From Candidatus Methanoperedens sp. (GTDB lineage Archaea > Halobacteriota > Methanosarcinia > Methanosarcinales > Methanoperedenaceae), in the NCBI GenBank assembly GCA_026552975.1, contig JAPMTR010000079.1, positions 1-55,415 of the forward strand: a DNA stretch of 55,415 nt, read 5' to 3'. The position numbers and the translations under genes were made by a program. Below, one piece after another: positions 4,862-35,821 of the stretch. The notes under the pieces are model-generated. The model did no database searches, had not been told where the DNA came from, and worked only from the letters and a program-made list of their open reading frames with translations. Within the stretch, counting starts at the first letter, position 1. Each line of letters opens with the position of its first letter.

Positions 4862-4881
4862 AATATATACATCATTCTGGC

Positions 4882-4941
4882 AGTATTTAATTATATCTGT
4901 TATATTCTACAAAAAAAATAATAATAATACTTATTATAATG
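4882..4941. repeat. Solo copy of AT-rich repeat tail
   Basis: The sequence running from AGTATTTAATTATATCTG through TTATATTCTACAAAAAAAA to ATAATACTTATTATAATG matches the tails of the two repeat units at 34298-34357 and 34516-34574. The folded head of those units is absent here. The copy lies in the gap upstream of the minus-strand small membrane gene and the plus-strand sugar dehydrogenase. Low complexity lowers confidence, but the order of blocks is the same in all three. Confidence 0.5.
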
Positions 4942-5025
4942 AGTTAGTTCAATATGATAACAAATAAATAATTCAATAACACTAAAATTTATTATGGTGG
5001 CGACCAATTAAACCTTCAGAAGATT

Positions 5026-32272: not shown

Positions 32273-33730
32273 ATGCAAACAATCACCTCATCCCGGATGG
32301 CGGCCATTGATGCCAATTGCGACTACCTCGGGATAAATCGCCTTGTTCTCATGGAAAATGCGGGCGCAGCCGTGGCACGAGCTGTTAAGGAAAGGATAAG
32401 CACAGGCAAAGTCGTGATCATTGCTGGAAAAGGAAATAACGGGGGGGATGCCTTCGTCGCAGCAAGACATTTGAGCAGGTATGATGAAAAAGTCTTATTA
32501 TTGGGGCGAAAAGAAGAGATAAAAACCCCCGAAGCACTTACGAACTGGAATGCACTGGAAAAAAGTTCTATTTCATTGACTCAGGTTCGAGATTCAAAAA
32601 CATTTGATCGCACATTGATAGAAGATACAGACATAATAATCGATGGTATATTCGGAACTGGCGTTCACGGGTTGATCCATGAACCTGAATCAACTGCAAT
32701 CGACCTTATAAATAAATCGGGCGCTTTTGTGATATCTATTGACGTTCCATCCGGTCTTGATCCCGATGGGGGGAAATTTGCCAAATCGGTAAAAGCAAAT
32801 CTTACGCTGACATTTCATAAAATGAAAGTTGGCCTTATGACCCCCCATTCAGGAGAATGTGCCGGGGAAATCAGGGTCATAGATATCGGCATCCCTCATG
32901 ATGCTGAATTCTACGTGGGTCCCGGGGACATTCAGCCTTTCTTAAAAAGACCAGCAACAAGCCATAAAGGCAATTCTGGAAGAGTACTTATCATAGGTGG
33001 TGGACCGTATTCAGGTGCTCCTGCGCTGGCTGCACTTGGAGCGCTTCGAGGTGGTGCTGATATCGTAACAGTTGCCGCCCCCAGAAGTGTTTCAGACATC
33101 ATTGCCTCGTTCTCCCCTAATCTAATCGTTCGTCCCCTGACAGGTGATATTTTATCAGGGGAGGATATTTCGATCATATCCCGGCTTATTTCCAGTCATG
33201 ATGTCGTTGTAATGGGGATGGGACTTGGAACTGAAGATAAGACTCTGCGTACAATCGAAAAGATCGTTCCTCTATGTAAGAGAATAGTCATTGATGCGGA
33301 TGCACTCTCACCGCGACTGGTTTCCCTTTTTAATAAAAACATGATCATAACACCCCATGCAGGTGAAATGAGGCGGTTGTCCGGCCTGGATGTCCCCCAT
33401 GATATCAATGAGAGGGTGAAAATGATTAAGGATTTTGCAGATACTCATAAGGTCACAGTTCTGTTAAAAGGGGCAGTTGATATCATTTCAGATGGTCTGG
33501 ATGTCCGCGCCAACAGGACTGGAAATCCCGGGATGACTGTGGGAGGAACAGGTGATGTTCTCGCAGGCCTCACTGGTGCTCTTTTTGCCAGGTGTGATTC
33601 TCCCCTTGAAGCGGCTGCAAGTAGCGCTTTTATAAATGGGGCAGCGGGTGACCTTGCTTTCCAGGAATTTGGATATGGTCTTCTTGCTACCGATGTTATT
33701 GATCTTATTCCTGCGGTGATGAGATCATGA
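32273..33730 (+). CDS. nnr: Bifunctional NAD(P)HX epimerase/dehydratase
   Basis: The protein has 485 residues and repairs hydrated NADH/NADPH. The N-terminal YjeF epimerase domain (about 1-210) has IIAGKGNNGGDAFVAARHL and SIDVPSGLDPDGG. The C-terminal ADP-dependent dehydratase domain (about 220-485) has GNSGRVLIIGGGPYSGAPALAA and the ribokinase-like GNPGMTVGGTGDVLAGL. The stop overlaps moaC by 4 bases (ATGA at 33727-33730). Confidence 0.94.
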   Translation: MQTITSSRMAAIDANCDYLGINRLVLMENAGAAVARAVKERISTGKVVIIAGKGNNGGDAFVAARHLSRYDEKVLLLGRKEEIKTPEALTNWNALEKSSISLTQVRDSKTFDRTLIEDTDIIIDGIFGTGVHGLIHEPESTAIDLINKSGAFVISIDVPSGLDPDGGKFAKSVKANLTLTFHKMKVGLMTPHSGECAGEIRVIDIGIPHDAEFYVGPGDIQPFLKRPATSHKGNSGRVLIIGGGPYSGAPALAALGALRGGADIVTVAAPRSVSDIIASFSPNLIVRPLTGDILSGEDISIISRLISSHDVVVMGMGLGTEDKTLRTIEKIVPLCKRIVIDADALSPRLVSLFNKNMIITPHAGEMRRLSGLDVPHDINERVKMIKDFADTHKVTVLLKGAVDIISDGLDVRANRTGNPGMTVGGTGDVLAGLTGALFARCDSPLEAAASSAFINGAAGDLAFQEFGYGLLATDVIDLIPAVMRS

Positions 33731-34194
33731 AGTTTTCTCATATTGAAGGAGAGAAAGCAAGAATGGTCGATATCAGCGAAAAGAAAGAAGTATCAAGAAG
33801 AGCGATATCTTCAGGAGAGATACAATTAAAGCCAAAAACCATCGAAGCCATAAGAAACAAACAAATTATCAAGGGTTCGGTACTCGAAACCGCGAGGATC
33901 GCTTCAATTATAGCAATAAAAAATACATCTTCTGTGATACCAATGTGTCATCAGATCACGATAACTGGTATCGACGTGCAATTTGACATTGGATATGATA
34001 ACGTAAAAGTGACAGTCGATGTTAGAACGATAGGAAAAACAGGAGTTGAAATGGAAGCTCTTCACGGGGCCAGCGTTGCGCTTCTTACGATATGGGATAT
34101 GGTAAAATCCGTGGAAAAAGATGATACCGGCAATTATCCATCTACTGCAATAAGAAATATAAAAGTCATTGAAAAGATCAAAGAACAAAAGTAA
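33727..34194 (+). CDS. moaC: Cyclic pyranopterin monophosphate synthase
   Basis: The protein has 155 residues and forms cPMP in molybdopterin (Mo/W cofactor) synthesis. It starts FSHIEGEKARMVDISEK. The active-site blocks are IPMCHQITITGIDV and EMEALHGASVALLTIWDMVK, with the catalytic KSVEKDD segment after it. It is translationally coupled to nnr. The AATATAAAAG near its 3' end (about 34157-34166) could be the TATA box of the downstream repeat element. Confidence 0.95.
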   Translation: MKFSHIEGEKARMVDISEKKEVSRRAISSGEIQLKPKTIEAIRNKQIIKGSVLETARIASIIAIKNTSSVIPMCHQITITGIDVQFDIGYDNVKVTVDVRTIGKTGVEMEALHGASVALLTIWDMVKSVEKDDTGNYPSTAIRNIKVIEKIKEQK

Positions 34195-34205
34195 ATAATG
34201 CAGGC

Positions 34206-34266
34206 CAGGCGCCTAAAAAAACGATGGGTCGAAGGAGACTGAGGGTACTAAAGGCTTAGGCGCCTG
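34206..34266 (+). ncRNA. Novel stem-loop element, copy 1
   Basis: CAGGCGCCTAA (34206-34216) and TTAGGCGCCTG (34256-34266) are perfect inverted complements enclosing a loop of 39 nt. The loop holds CGATGGGTCGAAGGAGACTG and then AGGGTACTAAAGGC. The loop core is identical in copy 2, while the flanks differ. Copy 2 adds a T on the 5' side and an A on the 3' side, which extends the stem by one pair. A paired insertion like this suggests selection on the folded form. Inside the loop GGTC and GACT could form a 4-bp stem with loop GAAGGA. RNA on the plus strand is assumed; the strand is not proven. Confidence 0.5.
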
Positions 34267-34297
34267 ATCCTACAACATTATTAATCATGATTCTAAT

Positions 34298-34357
34298 AGT
34301 ATTTAATATTAACTGTTATATTTTACAAAAAAAATAATAATGCTTATCATAATCATA
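34298..34357. repeat. AT-rich tail of repeat unit 1
   Basis: This block (AGTATTTAATATTAACTGTT, then ATATTTTACAAAAAAAATAA) follows copy 1 after a partly conserved linker (CTACA, CATTA, AATCATG). It matches the tail of unit 2 and the lone copy at 4882-4941. It has long A runs and a TTATATTTTA that could be a TATA box or, on the other strand, a T-rich terminator. Confidence 0.6.
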
Positions 34358-34421
34358 AAAAAGCTAATGGGTGCAGAGTTATCTTAAATATAAAGAAAAT
34401 ATTTAAAAATGGTGTAGTTAT

Positions 34422-34484
34422 CAGGCGCCTAATAAAAACGATGGGTCGAAGGAGACTGAGGGTACTAAAGGCATTAGGCGCCTG
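34422..34484 (+). ncRNA. Novel stem-loop element, copy 2
   Basis: CAGGCGCCTAAT pairs perfectly with ATTAGGCGCCTG (12 bp), with the same loop core as copy 1. A TATA-like AATATTTAAAAA lies at about 34399-34410, roughly 20-25 bases upstream. That is the right distance for an archaeal promoter starting transcription at or just inside the stem. The GGCGCC core is strongly G+C-rich against a very A+T-rich surrounding, as for stable RNAs. Confidence 0.5.
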
Positions 34485-34515
34485 ATTCTACAGCATTACC
34501 AATCATGTTTCTATT

Positions 34516-34574
34516 AGTATTTAATATTAACTGTTATATTTTACAAGAAAGATAATAATACTTATGATTATGAT
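34516..34574. repeat. AT-rich tail of repeat unit 2
   Basis: Second copy of the tail block, offset 218 bases from the first. It runs into the last bases of the minus-strand gatD stop region, so part of the gatD end (34568-34574) overlaps the repeat. Identity with unit 1 is high through TTAATATTAACTGTTATATT and then falls off. Confidence 0.6.
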
Positions 34575-35821
34575 GTGTGTGTGCTTCGGGTCATCTCGCC
34601 TGCGATATTCGTTTGCATCATTTCTTTAATATTTTCGATGCCTTTAGCCTGCCCGAGTACCCACATAAGTTTTACAAGAGCAACTTCTGACATCATATCT
34701 TCAGATTCTATAGCTCCTGCTTTTAATATATCCCTTCCCGTATCGTAAACGCGGTCACATACCCTTCCGCTGATGCATTGGGATGTCATAACAACAGGAA
34801 TGCCAGCATCAACAACCGTTTTAATAAGGGGTATCCATTCTGTTGAAACATGTCCAAGGCCTGTGCCTTCAATGACAATTCCTTTATATCCTGAACCTGA
34901 ATGGAACAGGAGGGATTCATCGCTAGCCCCGGCTGCATATTTTATCAGGGCGCATTTTGATTCAAGCTTATCATTGAGAACAAGTTTCTTTTCACCTCTT
35001 TTCACAAAAGAAGAGTTTATCCGAATATTTCGTGAAGGGTAGTCTACTCGCCCGATGGGTCTTGAATTTATGGACTGGAAAGCATCACGTCTTGATGTGT
35101 GCATTTTGCGGACTTTAGTTCCCCTGTGTATGCTGCAAAAGTCATCGCTTGATGAACCATGCATCACAACACAAACCTCTGCGATATCGCTTGTTGCTAC
35201 TACCGCAGCGCATATGGCGTTCATGGCATTGTCGCTGCTGGGTCTGTCTGCGCTTCTCTGCGAACCAACTAGAACAATAGGGACAGGCGTTTGTATCATG
35301 AATGAGAGCGCTGCTGCTGTGTACATCATAGTATCAGTCCCATGAGTGATAATTATGCCCTCAGCTCCGTTCTTTATCTCCTCATAAACTGCGCGAGCAA
35401 GCTCGACCCAGTAAGACGGACGCATGTTCTCACTTAGTATACTGTATATCATGCGGCAATTAAAATTCGCGATTTCTTCAAGTTCTGGGATGGTCTTAAT
35501 AATGTCATCTGCTGAAAATTGAGACGTGACCGCTCCTGTTCGATAATCTATCTTGCTGGCTATAGTTCCACCTGTTGAAAGGATTGAAATTGTGGGGAGC
35601 TCTGGATCTCTTTCCTTCTCCTGGCAGCCTTTTTCATGAATGGGCTTTATTTCTTCCTTTTTTTCGATAAGTGTTATTATTGCCGATCCTTTCTTTAATC
35701 CTATATTATATCCATTCTTTAATTTCAAGACGATCCTGTCAGTTTGTGAGGGCATGAGTGTCCCCTCATACTTTCCGCCTCTTGTTTCCACATGGACTTT
35801 ATCGTATAATTCTGGCTGCAT
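34568..35821 (-). CDS. gatD: Glu-tRNA(Gln) amidotransferase subunit D
   Basis: The protein has 417 residues. It is the asparaginase-like subunit of the archaeal GatDE complex, which turns Glu-tRNA(Gln) into Gln-tRNA(Gln) and supplies ammonia from Gln or Asn. The N-terminal barrel (about 1-75) precedes the asparaginase motifs [19 protein letters not shown] and [18 protein letters not shown]. Later blocks are [20 protein letters not shown] and [11 protein letters not shown]. GatE is not in this window. Confidence 0.95.

Follow-up and report, generated by a model that had tools for sequence, protein, structure and literature searches.

Two hairpin repeats between moaC-like and gatD-like genes of Candidatus Methanoperedens are very probably minus-strand small RNA genes

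The repeat and its gene neighbours

Analysis of a window of 55,415 nucleotides from Candidatus Methanoperedens sp. (contig JAPMTR010000079.1; the window is the whole stretch of DNA analysed) revealed two copies of a repeat in the gap between a moaC-like open reading frame and a convergent open reading frame, which we take from its sequence to be gatD-like. The copies start at 34206 and 34422, 216 bases apart with no protein gene between them, as a sequence-only reading of this DNA had reported. Two further details of that reading were borne out, in that the 34-nt loops of the copies match exactly and an extra T in the left arm and an extra A in the right arm give copy 2 one more stem pair than copy 1. 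The features of the locus are as follows.

33727–34194, plus strand: moaC-like gene, convergent neighbour (open reading frame and conserved neighbour; name as in the earlier reading)
34190–34279, minus strand: predicted small RNA gene, copy 1, ~90 nt (hairpin z, covariance-model match)
34222–34255, minus strand: 34-nt loop of copy 1, identical to the copy 2 loop
34298–34310, minus strand: TATA-like box of copy 1 (AATATTAAATACT), in the same conserved register as that of copy 2
34334–34356, minus strand: upstream box of copy 1, matrix score 26.6 (part of the matrix training set)
34404–34496, minus strand: predicted small RNA gene, copy 2, ~93 nt (hairpin z, covarying stem, covariance-model match)
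34405–34409, minus strand: run of five U (UUUUU) 3' of the copy 2 stem, a presumed terminator, read from the sequence
34439–34472, minus strand: 34-nt loop of copy 2, GCCTTTAGTACCCTCAGTCTCCTTCGACCCATCG
34516–34528, minus strand: TATA-like box of copy 2 (AATATTAAATACT), register kept in nearly all of 35 aligned copies
34552–34574, minus strand: upstream box of copy 2, a period-3 ATNATNAT motif and presumed regulator site, matrix score 23.7 (part of the matrix training set)
34568–35821, minus strand: gatD-like gene, upstream of the RNA and on the same strand (open reading frame and conserved neighbour)

The 5' and 3' ends of both RNAs were placed from the TATA spacing and the U-run, and the 3' end of copy 1 so placed overlaps the moaC stop. 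A covariance model of which both copies are part matched copy 2 at 34415–34494 (minus strand, 110.8 bits) and copy 1 at 34199–34276 (minus strand, 93.8 bits). Similarity between the copies continues for ~85 bases beyond the hairpin, on its right side as seen on the plus strand; we read this conserved tail as a putative minus-strand promoter and the 150-bp unit as a ~90-nt RNA together with that promoter. The repeat is real, since the minus-strand fold z values of −6.35 for copy 2 and −5.19 for copy 1, together with conservation across the genus, mark it as more than chance, and it is very probably a small RNA gene on the minus strand.

Stem, loop and strand of the predicted RNA

On the minus strand, a hairpin of ~11–20 bp presents a ~39-nt loop, 34 nt of which are nearly invariant. 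Other units of the family gave fold z values of −6.51 (locus L020), −3.83 (locus L035) and −4.69 (a virus record described below), and two diverged paralogs fold less strongly (−2.49 and −2.57). RNAalifold recovered the stem from the minus-strand sequences, with two-sided change at seven pairs, and in an 11-pair helix 98.3% of 352 cells were paired, two-sided changes again falling at seven of the 11 pairs. Two-sided cells in this helix numbered 42, compared with 14.3 ± 2.6 in shuffles, and the seven two-sided pairs and 15 further pair types, two of five covariation measures, were reached in 17 of 500 shuffles, all of these shuffle tests being inflated by the relatedness of the sequences. Slid versions of the helix paired at 25–40%, in a control that favours a structure derived from those same sequences. 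These comparisons show pairing in the predicted stem to be kept by compensatory change, in agreement with the co-varying stem first proposed from the two copies.

Departures from Watson-Crick pairing were distributed unequally: read on the minus strand, the 11-pair helix shows 24 G·U and 2 A·C cells, and the 13 pairs counted show 24 and 6. Because reading the plus strand turns the G·U cells into mismatches, the RNA is placed on the minus strand. The plus-strand orientation in which the sequence-only reading described the repeat is thus not upheld, the wobble pairs, promoter-like boxes and U-run all indicating the opposite strand. Its proposal of a small RNA with a fixed loop survives as to the nearly fixed loop and the covarying stem, but needs revision as to strand (minus) and extent (~90 nt plus promoter).

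The loop, which is pyrimidine-rich and predicted to be mostly unpaired, was compared among 46 distinct copies, namely those of the window, of the BLAST-found loci L007–L035 and of loci L086–L095, the loci other than the window having been found through whole-unit BLAST or the covariance model; alignment A2, whose rows were chosen by loop, was therefore left out of this count. The exact 34-nt loop occurs in 38 of these copies, four differ by one edit and four by three to five edits. Invariance is not absolute, because eight of the 46 carry a changed loop. The one-edit copies include three members of arrays on the moaC side, with an extra C in two and a G to A change in one, and their stems are still paired, in one case through a double change. 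Diverged paralogs at five places have UUUAGUA-nCCUCAGU-yUC-yUUCGA in common, and the C-runs ACCC, CUCC and GACCC are changed in one paralog group. An inner loop helix (GUC/GAC), also predicted, was discarded as it is broken in one paralog group.

Coding could in principle account for a conserved loop, as a small open reading frame or leader peptide of 17 codons (ATG CCT TTA GTA ... TGA) runs across it and is open in copies reading AATGCC. We consider this explanation extremely unlikely, since the ATG becomes ACG in copies reading AACGCC and would-be synonymous positions are unchanged in exact loops.

Distribution, promoters and candidate regulation

A covariance model made from 32 distinct sequences gave 53 matches with E under 1e-13, spread over 30 of the 185 genomes of the order. 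At this threshold the family was found in 28 of 31 Methanoperedens genomes and both sister-genus genomes, and in neither the single genome of a third genus (0/1) nor the other genomes of the order (0/151), so that the search of Methanosarcinales proposed earlier gave strong matches confined to Methanoperedens and its sister genus. The three Methanoperedens genomes lacking the family are 63–74% complete. Weak model matches occurred in 11 further genomes of the 185 (E 0.01–0.82, at most 24.6 bits). By BLAST, 46 of 149 relatives had a match at E ≤ 0.01; 28 of the 31 genus members and two sister-genus genomes were strong, and the remaining 16 matches were weak (E ≥ 0.001) and lay within the A/T-rich part. 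Thirty contig stretches carry the exact 34-base core, under the titles Methanoperedens, Methanoperedenaceae, Methanosarcinales, Euryarchaeota or uncultured archaeon, most named records being Ca. Methanoperedens. Of 237 genomes of the class, 30 contain a conserved 24-base sub-pattern (≤2 mismatches), all of them Methanoperedenaceae.

The genomic position is largely fixed. Of 60 records, 57 have the RNA next to same-strand gatD, convergent moaC or both, a count of records rather than of independent genomes because two collections overlap; the exceptions are the copies at L011, L034 and L059, of which L034 and L059 look like one place. Loci carry one to four copies, with four in tandem at G003:C17 and G019:C34. 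Several copies in some genomes, inverted ends and a few copies at other loci would also be expected of a mobile repeat of the MITE or REP type, for which the sequence-only reading had named freely varying loops between fixed ends as the signature. The reverse was observed, with ends varying while pairing is kept and a loop that is mostly exact, and this pattern, the gatD/moaC placement and the presence in the source genome (93.6% complete) of just the two copies described here at ≤3 mismatches render a mobile repeat exceedingly improbable.

The small RNA is absent from the RNA catalogues searched here. Rfam 15 gave no match in the window at the gathering cut-off, in line with the earlier failure to match the element to a known riboswitch, and a lax Rfam search of 34150–34620 gave five matches, all far below cut-offs. 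A plasmid search for the RNA gave no match, and no small RNA of this kind from Methanoperedens or ANME-2d was found in a literature search covering titles and abstract openings, with most subscription journals outside its scope. Riboswitches and cis-acting leaders occupy the 5' leader of a gene read in the same direction; this RNA instead points at a convergent moaC, both in the window and in each of the 60 records where moaC was seen. The exception is a copy at G004:C112 (L034/L091), directly ahead of a gene for a MarR_2-like helix-turn-helix (HTH) protein: at L091 302–779 the RNA copy directly precedes this gene, with GGAG and ATG coming after the copy. In L190, an HTH protein resembling this one has the upstream box ahead of it. 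Box C/D guide RNAs carry RUGAUGA and CUGA boxes around a guide. The minus-strand loop contains neither word and no Rfam family matched, and the RNA does not qualify as a box C/D guide; the weak box-like words CGATGG and CTGA of the earlier reading, which had itself judged the layout not to fit a standard guide, had been read on the opposite strand.

Alignment of 35 copies on the TATA placed AATATTAAATACT at a fixed position 5' of the hairpin, and the period-3 box (T-ATGAT-AT-ATAATTAT), which ends 25 positions before the TATA start, is in register in nearly all of them, L034 being off register. The upstream box of copy 2 overlaps the gatD stop, with spacing to the TATA as in other copies. Most hairpins of the family have a U-rich run 3' of them, copy 1 being one without a comparable clean run. 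These features indicate that each copy has its own putative TATA promoter and that most RNAs presumably end at the U-run. The plus-strand TATA-like sequences noted earlier before both copies are probably not promoters: the conserved TATA-like boxes are on the minus strand, and the plus-strand A/T run before copy 2 complements the U-run located 3' of the minus-strand hairpin.

Matrix sites of at least 20 bits in the window numbered three, comprising the two RNA promoters, both in the training set, and a site at 4918 (minus strand). The latter belongs to a second promoter-like stretch (4870–4942, minus strand), with box and TATA-like sequence, that faces a 67-aa membrane-like minus-strand open reading frame; the frame on its other side is presumably nucleotide-sugar-dehydrogenase-like. 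The box pattern exceeds its backwards control in many of the 31 genomes (43 versus 1 in G019), though not in every one (10 versus 11 in G015; 142 versus 109 in the source genome). Pattern and control are both very common in the source genome, unlike in most relatives, which hints at A/T-rich repeats. Proteins encoded near other box sites matched CheD, type IV pilin-like, KaiC, MinD/ParA, two glycosyltransferase, HerA-like, subtilase, CBM96, lectin-like and GDSL-lipase families and, below cut-off, the MarR_2-like HTH, which suggests a surface and motility type regulon, the neighbours scanned against Pfam being hand-chosen (21 of 44, five without a match). At L162 (1059–1623), ~310 bases separate a box site from a downstream gene for an Sm/Hfq-like protein of 75 aa (LSM 18.9 bits, below cut-off), and the stretch between them has no Rfam family match.

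We take the upstream box to resemble a Fur box. A Fur-controlled iron sRNA was nevertheless rejected, as the box was found at none of 20 feoB stretches at 13 bits (20 of the 29 genomes with FeoB, two stretches being shortened by contig ends) and matches to the Fur profile were partial. The Fur profile matched in 16 of 31 genomes at E ≤ 0.001, in 12 over the cut-off, with a best score of 30.2 bits; among the matches listed, all cover part of the profile, and the source genome gave no match. Iron or Fur control is thus not supported.

The loop's partner and comparison with known systems

The sequence-only reading had proposed a check of the loop for complementarity to rRNA, tRNA or mRNA leaders. 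The longest complementary run in SSU and LSU rRNA, taken from other members of the genus because the source assembly contains none, was 10 nt, towards the lower limit of the range in 30 shuffles per rRNA, and an rRNA target was rejected. Runs were ≤9 nt among 17 distinct tRNAs at the loci examined. No loop preference for ribosome-binding sites was detected at 129 start regions (+0.22 kcal/mol versus control stretches); 41 of 60 shuffles were as good or better by difference and 59 of 60 shuffled loops bound more strongly by mean, and general anti-Shine-Dalgarno action is not supported. A loop-complement search of 31 genomes yielded 83 matches, 48 of them the RNA itself and 35 others, compared with 46 in a backwards control, and no convincing extended complement was found among them, which argues against one long antisense target. 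About five of the non-self matches are look-alike stretches that turn up in two or three genomes each (e.g. G008:C70:2977 and G017:C42:9305), and these may represent either coding sequence in common or genuine targets.

An antisense regulator of the LhrC/RsaE kind, acting through short seeds, is a possible though doubtful alternative. Here the C/U-rich loop would pair through CCUC or CUCCUU with the ribosome-binding sites of several mRNAs and block translation, the tandem copies giving sensitivity. The pyrimidine-rich, mostly unpaired loop, the one to four near-identical copies and the recurring look-alike matches are consistent with such a role, and there is precedent for it: excerpts of the report on LhrC1-5 of Listeria describe five copies whose redundant CU-rich motifs bind the Shine-Dalgarno region (PMC4132741), and excerpts of that on sRNA162 of Methanosarcina mazei describe a single-stranded linker that masks a ribosome-binding site (PMC3510493). 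However, the 129 start regions were bound no better than controls, the ACCC, CUCC and GACCC runs are changed in one paralog group, and the sRNA162 linker is called the most variable part of that RNA in the same excerpts, whereas the loop is the most conserved part here.

A copy of the RNA is also carried, at 70.3 bits, by one IMG/VR record of 54,970 bases (IMGVR_UViG_3300037264_009246, L216/L250). This copy (L216 2012–2089, minus strand) has a loop identical at 34 of 34 positions and a different yet paired stem, its flanks matching those of copy 2 at 17 of 44 positions, ungapped. A relaxed viral search returned 23 stretches, of which only L216 scored convincingly (next best 18.8 bits). At 8 bits the matrix detected no host upstream box in L216. 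Genes in the part of the record examined encode an integrase-like protein (Pfam 22.4 bits, below cut-off; PHROG integrase E 2.4e-10), an MCM helicase, an RFC-like ATPase, a Kelch protein, a subtilase, and a reverse transcriptase and Mtd-like tail protein that we read as a diversity-generating cassette. We infer that the host is Methanoperedens, and the record could be a provirus.

Host and virus record have the same 34-bp core between inverted flanks, and in the record the integrase-like gene lies ~680 bp away, which raises the question of a DNA attachment or recombination site, with the virus-like record supplying attP. The excess of G·U over A·C fits RNA rather than DNA, the repeat has its own promoter and U-run, and the flanks of virus record and host differ while each is self-complementary, so that we regard such a site as very improbable.

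The loop barely changes, the stem changes in matched pairs and a virus-like record carries a copy; an important docking partner for the loop is therefore probable. Given that hosts and the virus-like record alike retain the loop, that paralogs keep no inner helix and that the genomes hold no convincing extended complement, a protein or protein-plus-RNA partner, more likely a protein, is favoured over one long antisense target. The explanation we prefer, with moderate confidence, is a stand-alone trans-acting small RNA of Methanoperedenaceae whose loop recruits or titrates such a partner. A regulator bound at the conserved upstream box would set the level of the RNA, and one to four tandem copies would raise its dose; the loop presented by the minus-strand hairpin would be single-stranded and would serve as the working part, held by the conserved partner. 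More tentatively, this may be a new RNA class in which the near-invariant 34-nt loop recognises a conserved archaeal protein, the host having one to four copies and the virus copy serving to tap or block the same host factor.

Methanoperedens couples methane oxidation to nitrate and metal reduction. With its clear covariation, fixed locus, recognisable promoters and virus-record copy, the family is testable in existing enrichments, with the prospect of naming the loop's partner and of learning whether the viruses of these archaea employ RNA regulators of the host type.

Comparison with known small RNAs revealed partial likeness to several multicopy systems. PrrF1 and PrrF2 of Pseudomonas, alongside which E. 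coli RyhB is compared, are sRNAs duplicated in tandem, and a separate regulated promoter drives each of the PrrF copies. The Methanoperedens RNA resembles PrrF in its tandem copies with their own promoters and differs from PrrF and RyhB in the lack of support for iron control. Like sRNA162 and sRNA171 of M. mazei, as described in excerpts of that report, it is an archaeal intergenic RNA with a TATA promoter, a long single-stranded stretch and a homologous second copy; sRNA162 has 191 nt, three stem-loops and a 39-nt linker, whereas the RNA described here has one hairpin and a conserved loop, placing it outside that family (PMC3510493). LhrC, by the same kind of excerpt, comprises several stem-loops and makes a Shine-Dalgarno contact that has been tested, unlike the single archaeal hairpin without general preference for ribosome-binding sites, but the two share several near-identical copies (two here and up to four at one locus elsewhere, with promoter boxes per copy), C/U-rich unpaired recognition stretches and shared upstream control (PMC4132741).
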